Origin: a virus
Length of the DNA: 26,415 nt
Virus record (IMG/VR): IMGVR_UViG_3300046010_003007
Coordinates: 1-26,415 of that record
Strand: one strand, 5' to 3'
Shown here one piece after another: positions 4,548-16,980 of this stretch. The position numbers and the translations under genes are program-made. The notes below the pieces were generated by a model. It worked only from the letters and a program-made list of their open reading frames with translations. It did no database searches and had not been told where the DNA came from. How positions within the stretch are numbered: the stretch's first letter is position 1; every line of letters starts with the position of its first letter.

Positions 4548-5048
4548 ATGGGTGACACCGACATCGACGCGTCCGAGACGGACGCGCCAGCAGAGCAGAC
4601 AGCAGACCCGGCTCCGTCTGACGATTTCAAGTCGGACGAGTCGAAGCAGCGTGTCCTTTCCGACCTGAAGCGTGAACGAGAACAGCGTCAGCAGCTTGAA
4701 ACACGGCTTCGGGAGATTGAGGACGCACAAAAGTCCGACAGCGAGAAGCTGGCCGACCGGTTGACCGATGCAGAAACGCGTGCCGCTCAGGCGGAAAGCG
4801 AACTGATGCGAGTTCAGGTCGCTGCTGCAAAGGGTCTTACAGCGGCACAGGCAAAGCGTCTGGTCGGTTCGACCGTAGAAGAACTGGAAGCTGACGCTGA
4901 CGAAATCGTCGCAGCGTTCGCTTCCCCGTCCGACGAGCCACCGTCGGCGCCCAAGCGGCGTCCTTCGGAGCTTGTCCCCGGTGCCGTTTCTGGCGCCGAA
5001 CCAGAACCGGACTACGACGCAATCGCGGACCGAGTCAGGCGCTGGTAA
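4548..5048 (+). CDS. Capsid scaffolding protein
   Basis: This 166-aa protein matches the profile of a scaffold that directs prohead assembly and then leaves: very acidic N-terminus, a long charged coiled coil (about residues 25-95, rich in K, R, E, Q and A), a low-complexity acidic and proline-containing linker, and a short basic C-terminal helix (YDAIADRVRRW) of the sort that contacts coat protein. It lies immediately before the major capsid gene. AAAGGGGG (4531-4538) precedes ATG 4548 by nine bases. The function rests on composition and position because scaffold sequences diverge strongly. Confidence 0.87.
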   Translation: MGDTDIDASETDAPAEQTADPAPSDDFKSDESKQRVLSDLKREREQRQQLETRLREIEDAQKSDSEKLADRLTDAETRAAQAESELMRVQVAAAKGLTAAQAKRLVGSTVEELEADADEIVAAFASPSDEPPSAPKRRPSELVPGAVSGAEPEPDYDAIADRVRRW

Positions 5049-5064
5049 CCCCCCGCACGCTCAC

Positions 5065-5077
5065 CGCCACGGTGGCG
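5065..5077 (+). other. Short GC-rich hairpin before capsid gene
   Basis: CGCCA-CGG-TGGCG is a perfect five-base-pair inverted repeat in the 62-base gap between scaffold and capsid. It has no T-run. With the second hairpin at 5095-5107 it makes the capsid leader structured, which could protect or process the capsid message. Confidence 0.3.
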
Positions 5078-5094
5078 AAGCGGCCAAATCCATA

Positions 5095-5107
5095 GACCTA
5101 GGAGGTC
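5095..5107 (+). promoter_or_regulatory. Ribosome-binding hairpin of the capsid gene
   Basis: GACCT-AGG-AGGTC is a perfect inverted repeat whose loop and right arm hold the Shine-Dalgarno GGAGGT (5101-5106), four bases before GTG 5111. Nearly the same element precedes the tail tube gene (10919-10933) and a small membrane protein gene (23458-23473). It is comparable in size and layout to the 13-bp start-associated sequences described in cluster K mycobacteriophages, also short inverted repeats around the ribosome-binding site. Confidence 0.6.
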
Positions 5108-5110
5108 ACC

Positions 5111-6022
5111 GTGGCGAATACATTTTTGAAGCCAGAGGTTATTAACCGGACGGCGCTGAAGCTGCTGGAGCGCGAGGTTGTTGTGCCCCGCGTCGTGTGG
5201 AATTACGCCGACGCGGAGTTCCGCGGCGCGAAGAACGACACGGTGACCCTGCGTCTCCCTGCCGTCGCGACGTCGCGCGAGTACGACTTCCGCAACAACC
5301 GGTCGAGCCCGATCGTTGTCGATGACCTGACCGAGACTTCGGTCCCGGTGGTTCTCGACCACGACATCTACCACGCTGCGGCGATCACCGATGAGCAGCT
5401 CACGCTGGACATCGTTGACTTCGCCGAGCAGGTGCTGACCCCGCAGGTCAAGGGCATCGCCCGCGGTCTGGAGGATCTGATCGTCTCCGTGATGGAGACT
5501 GCCACCTACGGCACCACCATCAGCATCGCTGACTCCGGTGATGACCTGTGGCAGACGCTGGTGCAGGCCCGTCAGGCACTGAACGACGCCAACGTGCCTC
5601 GCGAGGGACGCATCCTTCTCGTCGGTTCCGACGTGGAGACGGAGATGCTGCTGGACGACAAGTTCAACCGCGTCGACTCGTCCGGTGACGGCATCGCCAC
5701 CACCGCGCTGCGCGAGGCCACCATCGCCCGCCTTGCCGGTTTCACCATCGTTGGCTCCAACGCCCTCGACCCCGAGACGGCGATCGCGTACCACCCGACG
5801 GCGTTCGCGTTTGTCAACGTCGCGCCGGTCGTGCCCGACGGTGTCACCTACGGGTCGCGCCTGTCGGACATGGGTCTGGCGATGCGCTGGATTCGCGACT
5901 ACGACGCGCTGTACCTGCGTGACCGTTCCGTCGTGTCCAGCTTCGCTGGTTGCACCTCCGTCGAGGACAACGGCTCCACCAACGTCCGCGCGGTGAAGAT
6001 CAACTTCAACGGCGCTTCCTGA
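5111..6022 (+). CDS. Major capsid protein
   Basis: This 303-aa protein is the main shell subunit, expected to have the HK97 fold. The opening ANTFLKPEVINRTALKLLER and the following VVVPRVVWNYADAEF..G...TV.LR.P resemble P22-type coat proteins that are common in actinophages. It follows the scaffold gene and precedes the head-tail adaptor. It is preceded by a strong Shine-Dalgarno sequence within a hairpin. Codon use is more biased than in its neighbours, with many ACC, ATC, GCC, TCC and CTG codons and fewer TCG, GCG and TTG, as expected for the most abundant virion protein. There is no N-terminal delta domain or visible protease, which fits a separate scaffold. Confidence 0.92.
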   Translation: MANTFLKPEVINRTALKLLEREVVVPRVVWNYADAEFRGAKNDTVTLRLPAVATSREYDFRNNRSSPIVVDDLTETSVPVVLDHDIYHAAAITDEQLTLDIVDFAEQVLTPQVKGIARGLEDLIVSVMETATYGTTISIADSGDDLWQTLVQARQALNDANVPREGRILLVGSDVETEMLLDDKFNRVDSSGDGIATTALREATIARLAGFTIVGSNALDPETAIAYHPTAFAFVNVAPVVPDGVTYGSRLSDMGLAMRWIRDYDALYLRDRSVVSSFAGCTSVEDNGSTNVRAVKINFNGAS

Positions 6023-6483
6023 TGAGTTTGCCCGCGCTCGCGTCACTCAACGATCTGCTGCCCCTAGTCGGCAGCGTGAACGATGATGACCGGGCGCGGG
6101 CACTGCTCGCCTACGCGTCGGCCCTGATCCGCACCGAAGCCGGAGAGGACTGGGTCGACACCGACGGCAACCTTGACGGTGTCCCTGACATCATCCGAAT
6201 GATCTGCTGCAAGGTCGTTGAACGATCGTTGCAGAACCCGATGGGGCTGACCGCAGAATCGGTCGTGAACTATCGGGCTGAGTACGGAAACTCGTCATCC
6301 GATCTGTATTTGACGAAGCAGGAACGGCGGCTGGTGCGTAAGGCCGCTGGCAGCGTGCTGATCGGTTCGGTCGAACTGCAAACCCCGTACCGCAAATACG
6401 ACGCCGACGACGTCTACATGACGGTCGACAACGGCGGCGAAGAACTGCCGATGGGCCCGTGGCCGCAACCATCGGACGGGTAG
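6022..6483 (+). CDS. Head-to-tail adaptor
   Basis: A 153-aa protein of the HK97 gp6 / SPP1 gp15-type connector family, which forms a ring beneath the portal. Features typical of the family are an N-terminal helical segment (ASLNDLLPLVG..NDDDRARALLAYASALIR), a central VP.IIRMICCKVVERSLQNPMG helix and a C-terminal strand region ending in acidic residues. I start it at ATG 6022, which overlaps the capsid TGA by one base; an in-frame upstream extension would run inside the capsid gene. No clear Shine-Dalgarno sequence is seen, so it probably depends on coupling. Its end overlaps the first glycosyltransferase gene by 25 bases. Confidence 0.87.
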   Translation: MSLPALASLNDLLPLVGSVNDDDRARALLAYASALIRTEAGEDWVDTDGNLDGVPDIIRMICCKVVERSLQNPMGLTAESVVNYRAEYGNSSSDLYLTKQERRLVRKAAGSVLIGSVELQTPYRKYDADDVYMTVDNGGEELPMGPWPQPSDG

Positions 6484-7121
6484 CGATTATCGTCCCCATG
6501 TTGGGACGGCCACATACGGTTGCGCCGCTGGTCGAGTCGATTAAGGCGACGACGCCCGACCCCCACATCATTTTCGGTTGCACTGCTGGTGACGCCGATG
6601 TGATTAAAGAGGTCGCCGGGTTTGATTACTTTGAGGTTGGCGGGCCGATGCCGGGCGATTATGCCCGCAAGATCAACATGGGTTACAAGCTGACCGACGA
6701 ACCGTTGTTGTTCACGGGTGCGTGTGACATCCGGTTCCTTCCCGGCTGGTTTGAGGCTGCCACAGCGCGTCTCGACGGGACAGTCGGTGTCGTCGGAACG
6801 AACGATCTTGGTTCTAAGCGTGTGATGGCCGGTGACCATTCGACGCACTCGCTGGTCACCCGAGAGTACGTCGACAAGTTCGGCACGATTGACGAGCCGG
6901 GTGTGGTTCTCCATGAGGGCTACCACCATGAGTTCGTGGACGACGAGTTCGTTCAGACAGCGATGTTCCGTGGCATGTGGGCATTCGCCGAGGATTCGCA
7001 TGTCGAGCATCTTCATCCGAACTGGAATAAGGCGCCGTCCGATCGGCTGTATCGGATGCAACGCAGAAGGATGCGTCTCGGTAAGCGGGTCTACGCCGAA
7101 AGGAAGCACCTGTGGACGTGA
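6459..7121 (+). CDS. GT-A fold glycosyltransferase-like protein 1
   Basis: A 220-aa protein that looks like a short family-2-type glycosyltransferase, a soluble enzyme moving a sugar from a nucleotide-sugar donor. The N-terminal VAIIVPMLGRP..VAPLVESI is a typical Rossmann-like start. C89-D90-I91-R92, followed by FLPGWF, lies where the metal-binding DxD motif is expected but reads DIR. HHEFVDDEF at 156-164 is a likely catalytic or acceptor region, and HVEHLHP follows. GTG 6459 lies inside the end of the adaptor gene. It is the first of five such genes in a row. The sugar, the acceptor and activity itself are unknown; the altered DxD could mean an inactive or unusual enzyme. Confidence 0.75.
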   Translation: MAATIGRVAIIVPMLGRPHTVAPLVESIKATTPDPHIIFGCTAGDADVIKEVAGFDYFEVGGPMPGDYARKINMGYKLTDEPLLFTGACDIRFLPGWFEAATARLDGTVGVVGTNDLGSKRVMAGDHSTHSLVTREYVDKFGTIDEPGVVLHEGYHHEFVDDEFVQTAMFRGMWAFAEDSHVEHLHPNWNKAPSDRLYRMQRRRMRLGKRVYAERKHLWT

Positions 7122-7717
7122 CGGTTGCTGTAGCCACATTCGGTGGCGACCAGTGGCCTCGTCTGGCCGCTGAACGCGCTGTGCCATCCGCTGAAGCTCT
7201 GGGTGTCCCGGTGGTGACCTGTCACGCCGACACGCTTCACGACGCCCGTAACGGTGCGCTGGCGCAGGTTGAGACTGAGTGGGTGTGCCACTTGGACGCC
7301 GACGACGAACTAGAGGCCGGTTACTTCGACGCGATGGCCGCGGGGACCGCGGATGTGCGGGCTCCGTCTGTGCGGTATGTGCGTCAGCACCGGCTCCGAG
7401 AGCCCGGTATGCCCGCTGTTGCGGGTCACACCCATCAGTGTGTGGCCGAGTGTCTGGTCGACGGGAACTGGCTGGTCGTCGGTTCGCTGGTCCGCGCCGA
7501 TCTTGTTCGTAAGGTTGGCGGGTGGCGCGATTTCGACTGGTCTGAGGACTGGGATCTGTGGCTGCGCTGCCACCTCGCCGGGGCTTCCTTTGAGGCGATC
7601 CCAGAGGCCGTCTACCGGGCGCATGTCCGTCCTGACTCCCGTAACCGCGGGGCGTCACGCGAGAAGCGTCTGGCGGCACACAAGGCGATCGCATCAGCGA
7701 ACGGACTCGCAGCATGA
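7112..7717 (+). CDS. Family 2-like glycosyltransferase 2
   Basis: A 201-aa protein with clear GT-A hallmarks: TVAVATFGG at the N-terminus, ARNGAL at residues 45-50 (a common nucleotide-binding element), the metal-binding LDADDE around 61-66, and SEDWDLWLR at 144-152, which matches the catalytic ED motif of family 2 enzymes. It probably transfers one sugar to a protein or glycan acceptor in the cytoplasm. GTG 7112 has AAAGGAAG just upstream and overlaps the previous gene by ten bases; GTG 7118 would give a four-base overlap and is also possible. No membrane segment is present. Confidence 0.85.
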   Translation: MDVTVAVATFGGDQWPRLAAERAVPSAEALGVPVVTCHADTLHDARNGALAQVETEWVCHLDADDELEAGYFDAMAAGTADVRAPSVRYVRQHRLREPGMPAVAGHTHQCVAECLVDGNWLVVGSLVRADLVRKVGGWRDFDWSEDWDLWLRCHLAGASFEAIPEAVYRAHVRPDSRNRGASREKRLAAHKAIASANGLAA

Positions 7718-8373
7718 TCCTGTTGGTGATGACCGACGGTCGCCTTGACTGCATTGACCAGACGATCGAATCGGCCCGCGAGAACCTGTTGGGCCAGATC
7801 ACCTACAAAGTGATCCATGACGACACGGGCGACGAAGCACACCGCGACTACCTGCGCGGAGCGTTCCCCGATTTCGAAGTGATCGGTCAGCCAACCCGTC
7901 AAGGGTTCGGTGGGGCGATCCGGTCGGCGTGGACACATCTTCGCCGCCGCACCGAAAAGTTCGTGTTCCATCTGGAAGATGACTTCACGTTCAACGAGCC
8001 TCTGCCGCTCTACCTCATGGAACGGGTGTTGGACCGGAACCCGTCGCTGGTGCAGTTGGCGTTGCGACGGCAGCCGTGGAACGACGCCGAGCGTGCCGCA
8101 GGCGGAATCATTGAGCAACACCCCGACGATTACACCGACTGCTCCGACGGCATCAGCGAATGGTTGGAACATCGCCGGTTTTTCACGACGAACCCGTCGG
8201 TGTACCGGACGACGTTGATCGCGAAGGGTTGGCCTGAGGGCGACCATTCGGAAGGCGTGTTCGGGATCAAGTTGTGTGAGAACCCGGCGACGAGGTTCGG
8301 CTACTGGGGTCGGCGCACTGATCCTCCGAAGGTTCATCACATCGGCGATCACAGAGCTGGGACGGGGTACTGA
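7714..8373 (+). CDS. Glycosyltransferase-like protein 3
   Basis: A 219-aa GT-A-like protein. The N-terminus MILLVMTDGRLDCIDQTIES and the RQGFGGAIRSAW segment (62-73) match the nucleotide-sugar binding half. HLEDDFTF with EDD at 88-90 corresponds to the DxD metal site, and the following NEPLPLYLMERVL helix is typical. FFTTNPSVYR and the final GYWGRRTDPPKVHHIG form the probable acceptor side. It starts with an ATGA overlap on the previous gene and ends in a one-base overlap with the next, so the five enzymes are probably co-translated. Donor and acceptor cannot be deduced. Confidence 0.82.
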   Translation: MILLVMTDGRLDCIDQTIESARENLLGQITYKVIHDDTGDEAHRDYLRGAFPDFEVIGQPTRQGFGGAIRSAWTHLRRRTEKFVFHLEDDFTFNEPLPLYLMERVLDRNPSLVQLALRRQPWNDAERAAGGIIEQHPDDYTDCSDGISEWLEHRRFFTTNPSVYRTTLIAKGWPEGDHSEGVFGIKLCENPATRFGYWGRRTDPPKVHHIGDHRAGTGY

Positions 8374-9128
8374 TGATTACAGCAGCCGTGTCGATGGTGC
8401 GCGACGAGGCCGACATCATCGAAACGACCGTCAGGCACATGCTGACGCAGGTTGATGTGGTCATCGTTGCGGACAACCGCAGCGTGGACGGCACCCGCGA
8501 GATCCTTGACGGCCTGCCGGTGCATGTGATTGACGACCCTGAGCGCGGCTATTTCCAGTCGGAAAAGATGACCCGGCTAGCGCACCTTGCCCGCCTTGAA
8601 CATCATGCCGACTGGATCGTCCCGTTTGACGCCGACGAGTGGTGGTTCCACCCCGACGGGCGTATCGGCGACGTGCTGGAAACGGTGGAGCATTGGCCGG
8701 TCGTGACCGCCGAGCTGTACGACCATGTGGCGACGGGTGATGACCCTCCGGGGTTGTCTCCGGTCGCGGCGATGTCGTGGCGTCGGATACAGCCTGCGGC
8801 GTTGCCGAAGGTTGCGTGCCGCACCGCTCCCGATCTGGTGATCCATCAGGGCAATCATGGGGCGAACTACACCGACCCGCATCCAGAGACTTCAGGGTTG
8901 CAGGTTCGGCATTTCCCGTACCGGTCGCCTGAGCAGTTTGCTCGCAAGGCGATCAACGGTGCCGAGGCTTACGCAGCGACCGATCTTCCTGAGGACATGG
9001 GGAAGCATTGGCGTGACTACGGTGCGCTCGCCGCTGCGAACGGTGAAGAGGCGTTGCATGACGTGTTTCGCGACTGGTTCTGGGTGGCGACTCCGACACC
9101 GGATCTGGTGTTCGACCCTGTCCTGTGA
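8373..9128 (+). CDS. Family 2-like glycosyltransferase 4
   Basis: This 251-aa protein resembles the Glyco_tranf_2_4 group. VRDEADIIE (9-17) and DNRSVDGT (34-41) are the characteristic N-terminal motifs, and PFDADEWW (84-91) is the DxD metal-binding element. HQGNH (near residue 158) and a later basic helix probably belong to the acceptor side. It is the clearest member of the group and the largest of the five. The ATG overlaps the previous TGA by one base. Similar proteins in bacteria act in cell-surface glycan synthesis, but here the gene lies among head-tail connector genes, which points to a virion role. Confidence 0.87.
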   Translation: MITAAVSMVRDEADIIETTVRHMLTQVDVVIVADNRSVDGTREILDGLPVHVIDDPERGYFQSEKMTRLAHLARLEHHADWIVPFDADEWWFHPDGRIGDVLETVEHWPVVTAELYDHVATGDDPPGLSPVAAMSWRRIQPAALPKVACRTAPDLVIHQGNHGANYTDPHPETSGLQVRHFPYRSPEQFARKAINGAEAYAATDLPEDMGKHWRDYGALAAANGEEALHDVFRDWFWVATPTPDLVFDPVL

Positions 9129-10807: not shown

Positions 10808-10935
10808 CAAAGATCAAACGCCCCATAGGGGTGCTTGAAAGACCGTCCCGATGGCGGTCGAGAAGTCCCACGCCGCAAGAGACACCCCTATCCGTCGCGT
10901 CTTTGAGCGCATGACGGCTGACCTTGGAGGTCAAA
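10808..10935 (+). promoter_or_regulatory. Structured leader of the tail tube gene
   Basis: This 128-base gap can fold as nested hairpins. ATAGGGGTG (10825-10833) pairs perfectly with CACCCCTAT (10883-10891). Inside it, GACCGTC (10841-10847) pairs with GGCGGTC (10853-10859), including one G-T wobble. CCCC at 10821-10824 could instead pair with GGGG at 10828-10831, giving a competing fold. The Shine-Dalgarno hairpin at 10919-10933 follows. No open reading frame, T-run or good promoter is seen. It probably acts as a 5' stabilising or regulatory RNA for an abundant protein, as an inference. Confidence 0.5.
10919..10933 (+). promoter_or_regulatory. Ribosome-binding hairpin of the tail tube gene
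   Basis: TGACCT-TGG-AGGTCA is a perfect six-base-pair inverted repeat enclosing the Shine-Dalgarno GGAGGT (10926-10931), with GTG 10936 three bases after the hairpin. It differs from the core of the capsid element by a single base in the loop (TGG for AGG). Sharing between the two most abundant virion proteins suggests a common control of translation start or message stability. Confidence 0.6.
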
Positions 10936-11511
10936 GTGGCTGGAACTGTTGAAAACGTCCGCATTTGGACAAGCGCGGATGTTTACACCGCACCGGAGGG
11001 CACTACCCTCCCGACCAACATCGCTTCGGCGCTCAATGGAGCGTTTGATGCGGTTGGTTACATCTCTCAGGATGACGCTATTTCGCTGGAATGGTCAAGT
11101 GATGATACTGACCATTACGCTTACGGTTCTGTTTACATCCGTAAGACCAGCATTAAGGCAAAGCAGACCTTGAACTTCACTGCTTTGGAAGATTCGGACA
11201 TCGTGTTCCAGTTGGCTTACCCCGGCTCGGATTCGGCTACCGCTACGGGTATCACCACCCGTACCGTGCGCCCGAAGAACCTTGGCCTTGCTGTGGTCGC
11301 GATGGTTGTGGAGCTGACCGACGGTGACATCACGAAGCGCATCGCTATCCCGCGCGCTCAGGTGACCATCGCTGGTTCGGCGTCGCTGTCCGATAACGAG
11401 ATGGCTGGCGTCCCGATGGTTGTGGACATGCTCGGCGCGACCGACAACAACGACGAGACGTACTTCTCCATTGAGATCACTGACGATCCCGGCGCTATCG
11501 CTCCGTCCTGA
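10936..11511 (+). CDS. Major tail (tube) protein
   Basis: A 191-aa protein that should stack as hexamers to form the tail tube. It matches actinophage tail tube proteins: AGTVENVRIWTSADVYTAPEG at the start, GAFDAVGYISQDDAISLEWS, IRKTSIKAKQTLNFTALEDS, and the late KRIAIPRAQVT segment. I chose GTG 10936 because the Shine-Dalgarno GGAGGT ends five bases upstream; TTG 10924 in the same frame would put it inside the gene. The first half uses unusually many T-ending codons (GCT, GGT, GTT, ATT, ACT) compared with neighbours. It sits alone between a structured leader and a terminator-like hairpin, suggesting separately tuned expression. Confidence 0.9.
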   Translation: MAGTVENVRIWTSADVYTAPEGTTLPTNIASALNGAFDAVGYISQDDAISLEWSSDDTDHYAYGSVYIRKTSIKAKQTLNFTALEDSDIVFQLAYPGSDSATATGITTRTVRPKNLGLAVVAMVVELTDGDITKRIAIPRAQVTIAGSASLSDNEMAGVPMVVDMLGATDNNDETYFSIEITDDPGAIAPS

Positions 11512-11607: not shown

Positions 11608-11916
11608 ATGAGTGAAGTGCCGAAGCTGCGTCTGTCAGAGGTGCGCGAGCGCCTGATTGATAAGGGCGCGATCGAAGTCGTGTTGGACGACGACTCCGTT
11701 CTGCGGATCGACCCCCCCGAGTTGTGGTCCGATAAGTGCCGTCAGATTCTCGTTGACCCGACCAAGAACGACGTTGATCTTGGCCGTGAGATGATGGGCA
11801 AGGCGAACTGGGACAAGTTTGTTGCTGGCGGCGGAACCGGCGCATTGTTCGCTCACCTTCTCCAAGAGCGGTACCAGTTGACCAAGGGGGAATCGGAAGC
11901 CTCCTCGACTTCCTAG
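11608..11916 (+). CDS. Tail assembly chaperone, short form
   Basis: The zero-frame product, 102 aa, corresponds to the lambda gpG-type chaperone that coats the tape measure while the tube assembles. SEVPKLRLSEVRERLIDKGAIEVVLDDDSVLRIDPPELW and NDVDLGREMMG.ANWDKFVAGGGTGALFAHLLQERYQLTKGESE are typical of actinophage chaperones. It ends in a Ser/Thr-rich tail just after the slippery sequence. Its position, between tail tube and tape measure, is the standard one. The Shine-Dalgarno sequence is weak (GAAAGTGAG), and the start lies right after a repeat complementary to the upstream terminator loop. Confidence 0.9.
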   Translation: MSEVPKLRLSEVRERLIDKGAIEVVLDDDSVLRIDPPELWSDKCRQILVDPTKNDVDLGREMMGKANWDKFVAGGGTGALFAHLLQERYQLTKGESEASSTS

Positions 11917-12302
11917 GACGGTACGAGGGGGCTTTAGAGTCCGACCTGTTGAGGTTCTGGAATCTGGACTTGCACTGCGACCTAGGGACCGACCGGTTGT
12001 CGTGGCGTCGGCTCGGTGTCCTGATCGCGAACCTGCCGCCTGAATCGGCGACGGTGCGTGAGATTGTCGGTGCCGAGTACGGGTCGTGGACAACAACAGA
12101 CTTTTTGTTGGCCGGTGTGATTGACGTTCTGAATGGGGCGAACTGGCAGCGCGGTGGCGGTAAAGGCTCTAGGCCGAAACCGCTCCCGCGTCCGAAGTCG
12201 CTTGCCCAGTTGGAACGTGAACGTGTGGATCGTGAACGTAACGAAGCGCGGGTACGCGCGTTGCGCGAGCAACGGAAAGAGGTGACTGGTGGCGACAGGT
12301 AA
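11608..12302 (+). CDS. Tail assembly chaperone, long form (-1 frameshift)
   Basis: The extended chaperone of about 231 aa is made when ribosomes slip back one base near 11886-11892 and continue in the frame that ends at 12302. Read from 11889, the -1 frame gives GIGSLLDFLGRYEGALES and then DLLRFWNLDLHCDLG, the conserved beginning of actinophage gpT-like parts, with a basic, highly charged C-terminus (LAQLERERVDRERNEARVRA). The -1 part begins well upstream of its first ATG (11949), so it is not a separate gene with its own start. It overlaps the tape measure start by 14 bases. Confidence 0.88.
11886..11892 (+). other. Programmed -1 frameshift site
   Basis: The heptamer GGGGGAA is read in the zero frame as G-GGG-GAA and permits slippage of the P-site tRNA from GGG to GGG. 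A small inverted repeat, GGAAG (11895-11899) and CTTCC (11909-11913), starts three bases later and might act as a stimulator. The zero frame meets TAG at 11914-11916 while the -1 frame stays open to 12302. A frameshift at this location is conserved in nearly all siphophages. Confidence 0.8.
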
Positions 12303-15300
12303 CGATCTTGCAGTCGCTTATGTCCAGTTGCTGCCCAGCTTCGATAAGTTCTACGCGCGGTTGCGTGCCGAGGCAGGCCAGAACGCGTCGAAGTTTGAGA
12401 AGTTCGGCGCTGACGCCGGTAAGTCATGGTCGAAGGGGTTTGCGGCGAACGCGCAGGCCACCCCTACGGCGACAGGCGCCGCCCCTACCGGGGGCGGCGC
12501 CTCTGCCGCGTCCGAAGGGTCGTCGGCTGCTACAGCGATCGCTGCTGGGGCCGGGGCCGAGTTCGGTTCGATCGAAGCGGCTGCTGCCGCTTCGGGTGTT
12601 GCCAGTGGCGCTGCGTTCGCGAAGGGGTTTACTTCTGCTGGCGCTGGTCTGTCGGCTGTTGGTACGGGCCTGACCGCTGGTGTCACAATCCCGTTGGCCG
12701 CGGTCGGTGTGCTGTCGGCGAAGGCCGCGATCGACTTTGAAACAGCGTTCGCTGGTGTCCGTAAGACTGTCGATGCGACAGAGGCAGAGTTCGCACAGTT
12801 GTCTGCTGGTATCCGAGAGTTGGCAACCGGCGCTCCGATCCCAGTCGAGGGCATCGCCCGGATCGTTGAACTCGGAGGCCAGCTCGGTATTCCCAATGAC
12901 CAGTTGTTGTCGTTCGCTGACACCGTCACCCGGTTGAGCGTGTCGCTGGAAGGGCTCGACCCGGAGACTGCTGCGCTTCAGATCGCCCAGTTCTCAGCGA
13001 TCACCGGGATGCCAGCGGATGAGATTGATAACTTCGGTGCCGCGCTGACCGACCTTGGCAACAACTTTGCTACGACTGAAGGTCCGATCCTCCAGTTCGC
13101 TCTTAGGCTTGCTGGTCAGGGCAAGATCATCGGTCTGACAACCGAAGAAATCCTTGCTTTCTCGACGGCGTTGGCGTCGGTCGGCATCATGCCAGAGGCT
13201 GGCGGCACAGCGTTCTCACGGGTGTTCCAGCGGATCAATGACGCTGTCGGCACCGGCTCGGCAGAGTTGGAAACGTTCTCAGCGATAGCCGGTATGACTT
13301 CGCAGAAGTTCACCGAGCTGTTCGACAACAAGCCATTTGAAGCAATCAACGCGTTCACGATCGGGCTCGGCAAGCTGAGTTCGGAAGCGGCCACAACGAC
13401 CCCCATTCTGGAAGAACTGGGGTTGGCTGATGTCCGCGTCAAGGACGGTGTCCAGCGTCTCGCTGGTAGCCAAGATCAGCTCGGCAAGGCATACGACGTG
13501 TCGGCCCGTGCGATCAAAGAGAACACAGCGCTGATCGAAGAATCAGAAAAGCGTTACGCAACGACCGCGTCTCAGGTTGAGATTGCGAAGAACCGGCTGA
13601 ACGATGTCGGGATTGAGTTGGGCAACTCAATCACCCCCGCTCTGGCCGATCTGCTGGAAGCAGCGAAGCCGCTGATTGACGGTGTCGGCGTGTTGGCCGA
13701 AGCGTTCGGCAAGTTGCCGCAGCCTGTGCAGACCGCTGCGATCGCGACGGGCGTTCTGGCTGCTTCGGTTGGTCCGCTGTCGGCGTTTGCTGGTCTGTTG
13801 TCGACCGCTGTCGGCGGTGCGATCACCGCGCTGGTCGGGTTCACTTCGTCGGCTGGTGCTGCGGCTGTCGCAGCGACAACGACGGCGAGTTCTACGGCGA
13901 CGATGTCGACAAGCATGGCGCTCGCGACCACCACTACTGAGACGACCGCTGTGGCTCTTACAGCTACTGGGGCTGCTGGTCGCGCTGCTGGCGTCGGCAT
14001 GTCCGCTGCTGGTGCAGCGGCAAGGGCTGTGAAGTGGGCGTCGATCGCGGCTGGTGTCGCCCTTGTGGCCGACGCACTTTTTGATGTCGCGACGGGTGCC
14101 CCGGACGCGAAGGCCGCTCTGGACGAATTGTTGACGATTGATGCGGGTGCGTCGATCACGCAGCAGCTCGACAAGCTCGGTGCCGCTGGCAACGCAAAGA
14201 GTAAGGAAGGGCTGTTCGGGTTTATCAACAGTCTTGCCGACCCGGTCAACGACGTTGATCTTGGCGGCGGCGTCACTGCTTCCATCAAGGATTTGCAGCG
14301 CGGCCTTCAGGAACTGATTAGCGCCGGGGAGTTTGAGCAGGCCGAGCAGCAGATTGAGAACCTGCGTTCGGTGATCGACCGTCCCGCCAATCAGGAAGGC
14401 GGGATCTTCGGCGAAGCACCAGCAGCGGAGATTGAGACGACGGTTGAGCAATACACAAACGCGTTGGAACTGGCCCGTGCGAGCGAAGAACGGGCCGGTG
14501 CAGCGGCCGACGAGGCTGCTGCCGATGTCGGAGCGTTCGGGGGCGCGCTGGACGGTGCTTCGATCGGCGCCGCCGAATTCGTAAAGCAACTGAAGTTGGC
14601 TCAGGTGTCAGGCAAGTTGGCGTCGGTCGGGATCGACGCCGCGGCTGCTGCGGCGGAGCGTTACCTGACAGCGGTCGAGAACGCTGGTGCGGCCGACGAC
14701 CAGCTTGCCGCTGGGATCGGGTTCTCGCAGACGTTGCGCGAAGCACGGGAGAACGCGGGGCTACAGGAGTCCGAAGAGGACATCTCGTCGCGTGCGCGCA
14801 AGATCGCACAGGAACAGGATCGGATCGCCACGGAGATGCGCGACGCCGCGCTATCAACTGACGGTCTGACCGATGCCATTGACCGGTTGAACCCGGCGCT
14901 GCGGATCTTGGAGATTGAATCTGAGGCTGCTGCTGCGGCGGCAAACGGATTCCGCGAGTCGATCGAAAACTCTTCGTCCCTTGACGACACCATCGGCTCA
15001 ACCCTGTCACTCGGCGACGCTTACAAGACCGCCCGCAAGTCGATCAAGGGTTTGCCTGCCGATTTGGATTTGGCGGCGGTGTCGCTGGGCAAGCTGAAGC
15101 CACGTCAGCAGCGCGCCGTCGAAGGCATCCTCGCTCTCGGCGAAGCGACGACTGACTATCTCGCAACACTGATCGAATCAGGCAAGACCGATGCCGAGGT
15201 TCGTAACGAGGCGTCCCGGTTGCGCGACGAGTACGTCAAAACTTTCCGGCAGCTCGGGCTGAACGAGGATCAGATCAAGAAGTATCTCGACGCGATGGGG

Positions 15301-16980
15301 CTCACCCCTGAACAGGTTGAGACTGCGATCGAAGTGTCGGGGATCGAAGAGTCCAAGGCGAAGTTGCAGGCTTACGCACAGTTGCTGGAGGGGCGCATCC
15401 CGGCGAACGTGGCATCCACGGTGATCGGGCTTGTGGAGGCCGGTGACTTTGAGGGGGCTGCTGACCAGCTTGCTGCTCTCGCTGCGACGAACCCGATTGA
15501 CATTCCTGTTGGGGTGTCGGTGGATCAGCCTGCGATTACTGCCGCTCAGGACGCTCTCGACCAACTGGAGAAGGACACTCTCGACCTTCCCGAAGCGTTC
15601 GATGTGGCGACCGCCGCCTTCGGCGGGTACACCGAAGATCAGGAACGTGGCTTGCAGGCCGTGATCGACCTTGGCGACAAGGCGCAGGATGTCATCTCCA
15701 GCTTCATCGCCGCAGGCGATTTCGATGGCGCCCGCGAGGCTGCCGCTGGGTTGCGCGCTGAGATTGGCGGGTTCATCAGCGAACTGACCGGGCTCGACCC
15801 GTCCAGTCCCGAGGTTGAGCGGTACATTGACGACCTTTTGCAGCTCTCAGGCGCTGATGTCGAGACGAACATTCGACTGGCAGGGTTGGAAGAGGCGATC
15901 ACTCAGGTTCAGTTGTATATGGATCTGTTGGCTGCCGCCGAAATCGGTATCCCGCAGGAAGTGTTGAATCTCATCAACCTGAATGTGGCCGACAAGAACT
16001 GGGAAGGTGTCGCTGCGATTCTGGAGCAGTTCACGAACGGGCTCCCCGAGTTCCAGATCCCCGGTGTGACTACTCCCGGATTGAGTCCGGGGGCGTCGCC
16101 GCCCCCGGCGTTGGACCCTGCGAACCTTCCTCCGATTGACTACCCGGTCGCTGTCGACGTTGCCGACGCCGAGAACTTCCTTGCGACGTGGGTGACCGAC
16201 AACGAAACAGGCGAACCGCTGCTGGTTCCTGCGACAACGGACACTGCAGAGGCCGATCTGATCGTCGCTGAGTGGCGTCAAACCGAAGAGGGCAAGTGGG
16301 TCATTGTCGACACTGGGGCCAATCCGCAGCTAGCAACCGCAGAACTTGACGCTTGGCGTCGCGGCGAGGTCAACGTTCCGGCGATCACACCCATCGACGG
16401 CAATGTTGGCGCGGCAGAAACGGCCGTCAGAAACTTCCAGATCGGCGTCGAAGATCCCGCAGCTCAGGCGTGGAAGATCATCAACGGCGATACAAACCCC
16501 GCGCAGAAAGCGGTCGACGCGTTCGGTTTGGCGTTGTCGACCGCCGCCCCGTTCTTGCTGGACATCGCGATTGATGTCGCCGATTTCATCGACAACGTTG
16601 CTGACGCGTTCGGTGTCGGCATTGATGTCGCAGCGGACATCATCGGTGCGATCATCCCCGGTTTCGCTACGGGCGGCTATGTCTCGGGGCCGGGTACGGG
16701 TACGTCGGATTCGATCATGGCGAACTTGTCGAACGGCGAGTATGTGATGACCGCTGCGGCGACCCGCAGTCTTGGCGTCGATTTCTTGGACAAGCTGAAC
16801 AAGGGCTATGTGCCGGGGTTCGCGATGGGCGGGCTTGTCGGCGACACACCGCTGCCAGCGATCAGCGCAGGGGGCGGCGTGAACGTCGATTACACAGTCG
16901 TTGAGGCGAAGTCTCGGCCGTCTGCGGAGGATCTGGTGCGGGTGACGAACAGTGCCGTGTTCTTGGGGGCGTCGGTATGA
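12289..16980 (+). CDS. Tape measure protein
   Basis: This 1563-aa protein sets tail length and leads DNA ejection. At roughly 1.5 angstrom per residue the tail would be about 230 nm. Residues about 144-460 match the TP901-type core (AAIDFETAFAGVRKTVDATE, LGGQLGIPNDQLLSFADTVT, GLTTEEILAFSTALASVGIM, ..AGGTAFSRVFQRIN). Ala/Gly-rich hydrophobic stretches at about 484-527 and 577-603 could be membrane-inserting. Residues about 922-1259 hold two diverged tandem copies of a helical unit. The C-terminal FATGGYVSGPGTGTSDSIMA and NLSNGEYVMTA are hallmarks of the family. GTG 12289 has GAAAGAGG just upstream. Confidence 0.96.
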   Translation: MATGNDLAVAYVQLLPSFDKFYARLRAEAGQNASKFEKFGADAGKSWSKGFAANAQATPTATGAAPTGGGASAASEGSSAATAIAAGAGAEFGSIEAAAAASGVASGAAFAKGFTSAGAGLSAVGTGLTAGVTIPLAAVGVLSAKAAIDFETAFAGVRKTVDATEAEFAQLSAGIRELATGAPIPVEGIARIVELGGQLGIPNDQLLSFADTVTRLSVSLEGLDPETAALQIAQFSAITGMPADEIDNFGAALTDLGNNFATTEGPILQFALRLAGQGKIIGLTTEEILAFSTALASVGIMPEAGGTAFSRVFQRINDAVGTGSAELETFSAIAGMTSQKFTELFDNKPFEAINAFTIGLGKLSSEAATTTPILEELGLADVRVKDGVQRLAGSQDQLGKAYDVSARAIKENTALIEESEKRYATTASQVEIAKNRLNDVGIELGNSITPALADLLEAAKPLIDGVGVLAEAFGKLPQPVQTAAIATGVLAASVGPLSAFAGLLSTAVGGAITALVGFTSSAGAAAVAATTTASSTATMSTSMALATTTTETTAVALTATGAAGRAAGVGMSAAGAAARAVKWASIAAGVALVADALFDVATGAPDAKAALDELLTIDAGASITQQLDKLGAAGNAKSKEGLFGFINSLADPVNDVDLGGGVTASIKDLQRGLQELISAGEFEQAEQQIENLRSVIDRPANQEGGIFGEAPAAEIETTVEQYTNALELARASEERAGAAADEAAADVGAFGGALDGASIGAAEFVKQLKLAQVSGKLASVGIDAAAAAAERYLTAVENAGAADDQLAAGIGFSQTLREARENAGLQESEEDISSRARKIAQEQDRIATEMRDAALSTDGLTDAIDRLNPALRILEIESEAAAAAANGFRESIENSSSLDDTIGSTLSLGDAYKTARKSIKGLPADLDLAAVSLGKLKPRQQRAVEGILALGEATTDYLATLIESGKTDAEVRNEASRLRDEYVKTFRQLGLNEDQIKKYLDAMGLTPEQVETAIEVSGIEESKAKLQAYAQLLEGRIPANVASTVIGLVEAGDFEGAADQLAALAATNPIDIPVGVSVDQPAITAAQDALDQLEKDTLDLPEAFDVATAAFGGYTEDQERGLQAVIDLGDKAQDVISSFIAAGDFDGAREAAAGLRAEIGGFISELTGLDPSSPEVERYIDDLLQLSGADVETNIRLAGLEEAITQVQLYMDLLAAAEIGIPQEVLNLINLNVADKNWEGVAAILEQFTNGLPEFQIPGVTTPGLSPGASPPPALDPANLPPIDYPVAVDVADAENFLATWVTDNETGEPLLVPATTDTAEADLIVAEWRQTEEGKWVIVDTGANPQLATAELDAWRRGEVNVPAITPIDGNVGAAETAVRNFQIGVEDPAAQAWKIINGDTNPAQKAVDAFGLALSTAAPFLLDIAIDVADFIDNVADAFGVGIDVAADIIGAIIPGFATGGYVSGPGTGTSDSIMANLSNGEYVMTAAATRSLGVDFLDKLNKGYVPGFAMGGLVGDTPLPAISAGGGVNVDYTVVEAKSRPSAEDLVRVTNSAVFLGASV
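15052..16065 (+). repeat. Diverged tandem duplication in the tape measure
   Basis: Two protein-level copies can be aligned. Copy 1 (15052 to about 15510) starts LPADLDLAAVSLGKL and copy 2 (15586 to 16065) starts LPEAFDVATAAFGGY. Matched landmarks are RAVEGILALGEATTDYLATL with GLQAVIDLGDKAQDVISSFI, then DAEVRNEASRLRDEY with DGAREAAAGLRAEIG, then QVETAIEVSGIEESKAKLQAY with DVETNIRLAGLEEAITQVQLY, then GDFEGAADQLAAL with KNWEGVAAILEQF. The copies are too diverged to be obvious at DNA level. Confidence 0.7.

Follow-up and report, generated by a model that had tools for sequence, protein, structure and literature searches.

In the RNA phage MS2 the start codon of the replicase gene is held inside an RNA structure, the coat-protein operator, which is a simple local hairpin bound by coat protein.

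The rpsO (uS15) operator of Escherichia coli and mycobacteria consists of a 5' hairpin and a pseudoknot at the translation start, with an alternative form of two hairpins (PMC8470358). The leader pseudoknot of T4 gene 32, possibly the only viral pseudoknot in translational autoregulation, is located 67 nt upstream and serves to nucleate gp32 on an A+U-rich stretch over the ribosome-binding site (PMC3014915). Start-associated sequences (SAS) are 13-bp elements at ribosome-binding sites of cluster K mycobacteriophages (PMC3203893) and cluster EF Microbacterium phages (PMC7302621). Their consensus is fixed, GGGATAGGAGCCC or GGGAAAGGACCCC, with about 10-19 near-identical copies per genome, and in cluster K the copies are restricted to non-structural genes (PMC3203893).

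We analyzed a 26.4-kb IMG/VR fragment of a siphovirus-like phage (the whole of this stretch is referred to as the window), whose capsid has isolate relatives that infect Actinomycetota. The leader of its capsid gene carries an element of about 85 nt that recurs before the capsid genes of about 60 related actinophage-like contigs, most of them uncultivated. The element comprises a 5' hairpin (PA) and a pairing (P1) in which the apical loop of PA, GCCAY, about 45 nt upstream, is complementary to the start codon and codon 2; in part of the leaders there is also a small hairpin (P3) that holds the Shine-Dalgarno (SD) sequence.

In common with the rpsO operator, the element has a 5' hairpin and a predicted pseudoknot at the translation start, with alternative hairpins as a second form; the crossing stems PA and P1 both covary in silico. 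It differs from rpsO in that it precedes genes for virion proteins, has another sequence, includes the start codon in the covarying P1, and does not conserve the motif read by uS15. By analogy, it may work like the rpsO operator without being that operator. With the T4 gene 32 leader it shares a likely pseudoknot in a phage mRNA and probable translational control; unlike gene 32, the start codon would lie inside the knot, in P1, and the region is rich in G+C, which sets it apart from the gene 32 type of operator. As in the MS2 operator, the start codon would be within RNA structure, whereas the MS2 hairpin is simple and local. Like SAS, P3 lies a few nucleotides before start codons (3 nt here) and has complementary outer bases around the SD. 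Unlike SAS, it has variable arms, another motif (GACCTNGGAGGTC) and a place before capsid and tail-tube genes, it is accompanied by PA and P1, and it is rare, the 13-mer occurring twice in the 26-kb fragment and the large contigs of relatives having one or two elements. We therefore rejected membership in SAS on consensus, copy number and gene class; the parallel to cluster K SAS that had been drawn in an initial annotation of the window holds for position at the ribosome-binding site and for nothing else (PMC3203893).

Inverted repeats around the Shine-Dalgarno sequence

The initial annotation had pointed out two near-identical inverted repeats holding the SD before the capsid and tail-tube genes, and we found both of them exactly as described, GACCTAGGAGGTC at 5095-5107 and GACCTTGGAGGTC at 10920-10932 on the plus strand, each ending 3 nt short of a GTG start codon (Table 1). 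Exact matches to GACCTNGGAGGTC number two in the window (5095 and 10920, both on the plus strand), compared with a mean of 0.01 in dinucleotide shuffles, which never gave two. When three mismatches are allowed, its frequency is at chance level (32 matches versus 31.7), and only near-exact copies are therefore informative. Each of the two hairpins has a 5-bp stem, a 3-nt loop and a folding energy of about -4 kcal/mol. The distance from GGAGG to GTG is 5 nt at both starts, and GGAGG is weak or absent at most of the other window starts listed.

Table 1. Predicted features of the capsid and tail-tube leaders, with window positions.
Feature	Position	Strand	Remarks
Stop codon of scaffolding gene (ORF 4548-5048, phrog_1793)	5046..5048	+	7 nt before PA
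PA hairpin, capsid leader	5053..5083	+	covariance-model match; covariation in both stems
PA outer stem CCGC/GCGG	5053-5056/5080-5083	+	
PA inner stem	5058-5060/5075-5077 and 5062-5065/5071-5074	+	
PA loop GCCAC	5066-5070	+	
P1 5' arm CGCCACGGT, anti-start-codon strand	5065..5073	+	pairs with 5108-5116
P3 SD hairpin, capsid, GACCT-AGG-AGGTC	5095..5107	+	
SD GGAGG, capsid leader	5101..5105	+	
P1 3' arm ACCGTGGCG	5108..5116	+	holds capsid GTG 5111-5113
Major capsid gene (major head protein)	5111..6022	+	phrog_283, E 1.8e-61
Tail-tube P1 5' arm GCCGC (L005: GCCAC)	10872..10876	+	pairs with GTGGC 10936-10940
Tail-tube P2 hairpin CCGTCGCG..CGCATGACGG	10892..10917	+	
P3 SD hairpin, tail-tube, TGACCT-TGG-AGGTCA	10919..10933	+	
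Tail-tube P1 3' arm GTGGC	10936..10940	+	start codon and GC of codon 2
Major tail (tube) gene	10936..11511	+	phrog_117, E 4.5e-32

Among the capsid relatives the arms of P3 vary while the SD is retained. A perfect 4-bp stem over the SD is present in 16 of 48 non-redundant leaders, a first set with the arm variants GACC/GGTC, CCCC/GGGG and AACC/GGTT, and in 24 of 60 full-element leaders; permuted arms gave 6.4 and 12.1, respectively (0 of 5000 in each case), with permutations that leave the relatedness among leaders in place. The arms covary, GGTC being accompanied by GACC in 17 of 23 cases and GGTT by AACC in 7 of 20. Many relatives, L007 and L037 among them, have the SD without the small hairpin. 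The proposal that the hairpin is a control element thus gains from compensatory changes in its arms and loses from leaders in which pairing has disappeared and the SD has not, an outcome that the annotation itself had named as speaking against it. We regard P3 as probably selected but facultative. A role in translation control or RNA processing had been suggested as well; the first is supported before the capsid and tail-tube genes, and nothing was found for RNA processing. As judged from the comparison of leaders, the small hairpin before the capsid gene is part of a larger conserved fold that pairs the start codon.

Three other features of the window were observed. A glycosyltransferase-like cassette at 6459-9128 (phrog_14945, phrog_3047, phrog_13126) is flanked by the head-tail adaptor and neck genes, which is an unusual position within the structural module. 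Two tail assembly chaperone ORFs at 11608-12302 are in different frames, as expected for a programmed frameshift, and residues 1425-1531 of the tape measure protein (12289-16980), close to the C-terminus, give an endolysin-like match (phrog_971).

Crossing pairings in the capsid leader

PA has the form CCGC-A-CGGCC...GGCCG-GCGG. Its outer stem also occurs as CTCGC/GCGAG and ACCGC/GTGGT, the CGGCC/GGCCG of the inner stem is replaced by CGACC/GGTCG or GCTGTT/AGCAGC, and the sequence itself (CCGC, GCGG) is conserved beyond pairing. The G+C content of the element is about 0.5-0.77 across model matches. The loop follows the start site, GTGGC starts going with GCCAC and ATGGC starts with GCCAT: GCCAC is found upstream of 41 of 47 GTGGC capsid starts and GCCAT upstream of 13 of 38 ATGGC starts, and both are rare upstream of other genes. 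In L204, where codon 2 is altered (GTGAGT, codon AGT), the upstream partner is CTCAC in place of GCCAC.

All of the evidence is comparative and computational, and the start codons are predictions. When 33 capsid leaders were aligned by MAFFT without structure (A2), an all-against-all scan of column pairs ranked the two P1 pairs first, and P1 was 91.5% paired. The covariation score for PA and P1 together was 0.243, compared with 0.140 in shuffled alignments (0 of 500) and at most 0.115 when the stems were slid, and there were 36 double-changed cells, compared with 12.2 after shuffling and no more than 16 after sliding. Additionally, 71 distinct leaders were aligned with a PA-only model (A5); this alignment is fitted to PA, so its PA counts lean towards PA, and P1 is absent from the model. 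The partner of the first start-codon base pairs in all 68 leaders that have both letters (54 C-G, 14 U-A), and the pair at base -1 among the 71 leaders is GC in 42, AU in 10, UA in 9 and CG in one, with three unpaired. A capsid tree covering 59 leaders requires at least 10 changes of the start base and at least 10 of its partner, and wherever supported branches allowed an independent comparison the two had changed together (7 of 7 cases, p 0.016).

Start-codon stems of at least 6 bp occur in 67% of capsid leaders compared with 15% after shuffling, and portal, protease, scaffold, adaptor and most other structural genes are near the null. Nearest-neighbour folding without pseudoknots, applied to 71 leaders, favoured P1 in 65 and PA in two, and the median unpaired probability of the start codon was 0.00 in capsid leaders versus 0.36-0.55 in other genes. 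The fold around the capsid start is therefore well supported by sequence comparison, which establishes the presence of these pairings, the selection on them and their locations. PA encloses the left arm of P1 and the right arm lies beyond PA, so that the two would form either an H-type pseudoknot or alternative stems.

The window capsid leader is a full member of this group, with a model match at 5040-5122 (71.3 bits, E 1.9e-14) to a covariance model that included the near-identical leader L006. Folding of single sequences gave a z of only -2.15 for this leader and -0.85 for the tail-tube leader. The latter has a 5-bp P1 (GCCGC/GTGGC), a further hairpin (P2) and P3, and has no PA of the type described by R1, a covariance model holding PA only; the P2 stem differs in sequence in L004 and L005 and is still paired. 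The window tail-tube gene thus appears to bear a simpler version of the element, for which support is less than for the capsid version and relatives are few. At 10825-10891 we also observed ATAGGGGTG and CACCCCTAT, two complementary sequences on either side of the anti-start GCCGC of the tail-tube leader; they are invariant in relatives and possibly form a PA-like hairpin.

Distribution of the element

In order to examine distribution, R1 was run on 1.1 Mb of loci, where matches below E 0.08 were found only at capsid starts or, in six phages, at tail-tube starts. Most phages have the element at the capsid gene only; it precedes both genes in L037, L042, L043, L049, L051, L058 and L386/L422. 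A DNA pattern scan of viral contigs used PA and GCCAY and held neither the SD nor the start codon, and all of its cases confirmed by the model lie before capsid or tail-tube genes; protein-guided scans supplied further leaders. Of 12 large viral contigs that were searched over their full length, ten carry a single copy at the capsid gene or one copy each at the capsid and tail-tube genes; no clear copy was found in L429 and L430, which were recruited by the tail-tube gene alone.

The element is absent from the cultured relatives examined. Rfam 15 gave no match at the element in the window at E <= 5 and none at gathering score in eight relatives, phage records gave no megablast match to the window region, and a literature search of partial coverage found no description of an equivalent capsid-leader RNA. 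The contigs with the element come from metagenomes, other than two in an assembly named uncultured Dehalococcoidia, where phage capsids with the element (L334 and L204) are found at two places, reflecting a real host or mis-binning. A covariance-model search of 197 genomes of that assembly's class matched only in that assembly. The same kind of search over 396 genomes of the phylum of a Streptomyces genome gave three weak matches (E 0.001-0.01), which by eye are not the element.

Structured leaders of other kinds were also seen. Streptomyces-linked capsid genes (L019-L022 upstream of 8001, L202 upstream of 6001) have a terminator-like hairpin with a T-run, e.g. AGCCCCTTGAACGGGGCTTTTT, that ends about 25-30 nt before the capsid start; a scaffold-capsid terminator was rejected as a general feature, being seen only in this group, which is without the element. 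Part of the capsid leaders L010-L018, and L200, L201 and L207, contain runs of C and of G in alternation, four in all (GCCCC..GGGGC..CCCC..GAGGGGC), for which two pairings are possible; one of these would hide the SD in a long hairpin. Tail-tube leaders L045, L046, L048, L050, L060, L063, L363, L412 and L413 share a covarying hairpin GGGCGTG..CATGCCC before the SD; start pairing is not clear in this set.

Possible modes of translational control

We propose that the element acts in cis within the late mRNA as a translational gate, either pseudoknotted or bistable, on synthesis of the capsid and sometimes also of the tail-tube protein, and we consider this reading probable. PA would fold directly after the upstream stop codon and display the anti-start GCCAY in its loop, which could then form P1 with the start codon and codon 2 to give an H-type pseudoknot; alternatively, P1 could grow to 9-13 bp and displace the inner stem of PA. 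The SD would sit in the strand between the arms of P1, often inside its own hairpin P3. Formation of P1 would bury the start codon and block or slow initiation, and with P1 open (PA and P3 formed) the initiation site would be usable. A gate is the simplest reading because the start codon is fully buried in the P1 state. Against it, strong sequestration is odd at highly expressed genes, PA and a long P1 compete, and the cultured relatives live without the element. We infer that the pairing takes place in RNA, that P1 is repressive and that something opens or closes it; candidates are a protein, the ribosome terminating on the upstream gene, or folding kinetics.

Two more specific forms of the translational gate are possible, each held tentatively. 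The element may be an operator for a trans-acting RNA-binding protein of phage or host that stabilizes the pseudoknot and represses capsid and tail-tube genes together, as uS15 does at rpsO. The presence of the element before both genes in some phages suggests such a factor, and conservation of CCGC and GCGG in PA, not of pairing alone, is consistent with it, as is the folding of the E. coli and mycobacterial rpsO leaders as two hairpins or a pseudoknot (PMC8470358). However, most phages have the element at the capsid gene alone. S15 itself was rejected as the ligand: of its recognition motif (U-G/C-G in stem 1, A in loop 1), the U-G/C-G part is not conserved, 13 leaders having U-G as their inner PA pair. 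That one factor binds the pseudoknot on both messages and sets their output jointly, as a stoichiometry switch in virion assembly, is a more doubtful extension.

To a similar degree it is conceivable that the element is a coupling device. A ribosome finishing the preceding gene, which encodes the scaffold or the tail terminator, would cover the 5' strand of PA and shift the equilibrium between PA and P1, so that the amount of capsid protein made would depend on translation of that gene. Its stop codon is 4-13 nt upstream of PA in 63 of 70 leaders, with a median of 10 nt, which a terminating ribosome could reach across to melt PA; this spacing may, however, reflect compact genomes only, and in tail-tube copies the stop is 34 nt (L037) and 26 nt (L043) from PA.

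We consider it unlikely that the repeats act at the DNA level by binding a transcription regulator, with incidental overlap of the start codon. Short inverted repeats near starts are known in phages (cluster O, EG), and G-U pairs are not enriched over shuffles, so that covariation alone cannot separate RNA from DNA pairing. The RNA reading is favoured by the anchoring of every site to the start codon in a single orientation and by complementarity that is kept while the sequence changes, tracking the start codon and codon 2 with no fixed binding sequence; in addition, PA and P1 cross. A strong SD with flanks complementary by chance, or an SD-extension effect, would agree with the lack of P3 in about half of the leaders but is very improbable, given that the P3 arms covary (GACC/GGTC, AACC/GGTT, CCCC/GGGG) and that P1 leaves out the SD core, and for P1 it is refuted by covariation and by co-changes on the tree.

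The abundance of capsid and tail-tube proteins is usually credited to strong late transcription. The translational gate proposed here implies that the timing of translation of the most abundant virion proteins is probably under phage control. A joint capsid and tail-tube operator, if true, would to our knowledge be the first for structural genes of tailed phages. Alongside T4 gene 32, the element would be another type of phage leader with a pseudoknot, and as a defined RNA with natural compensatory pairs it offers a tool to study the timing and balance of virion protein synthesis. A selected structure that hides the start and was kept through at least 10 start-codon changes suggests translational control of the major capsid gene in these little-studied phages.
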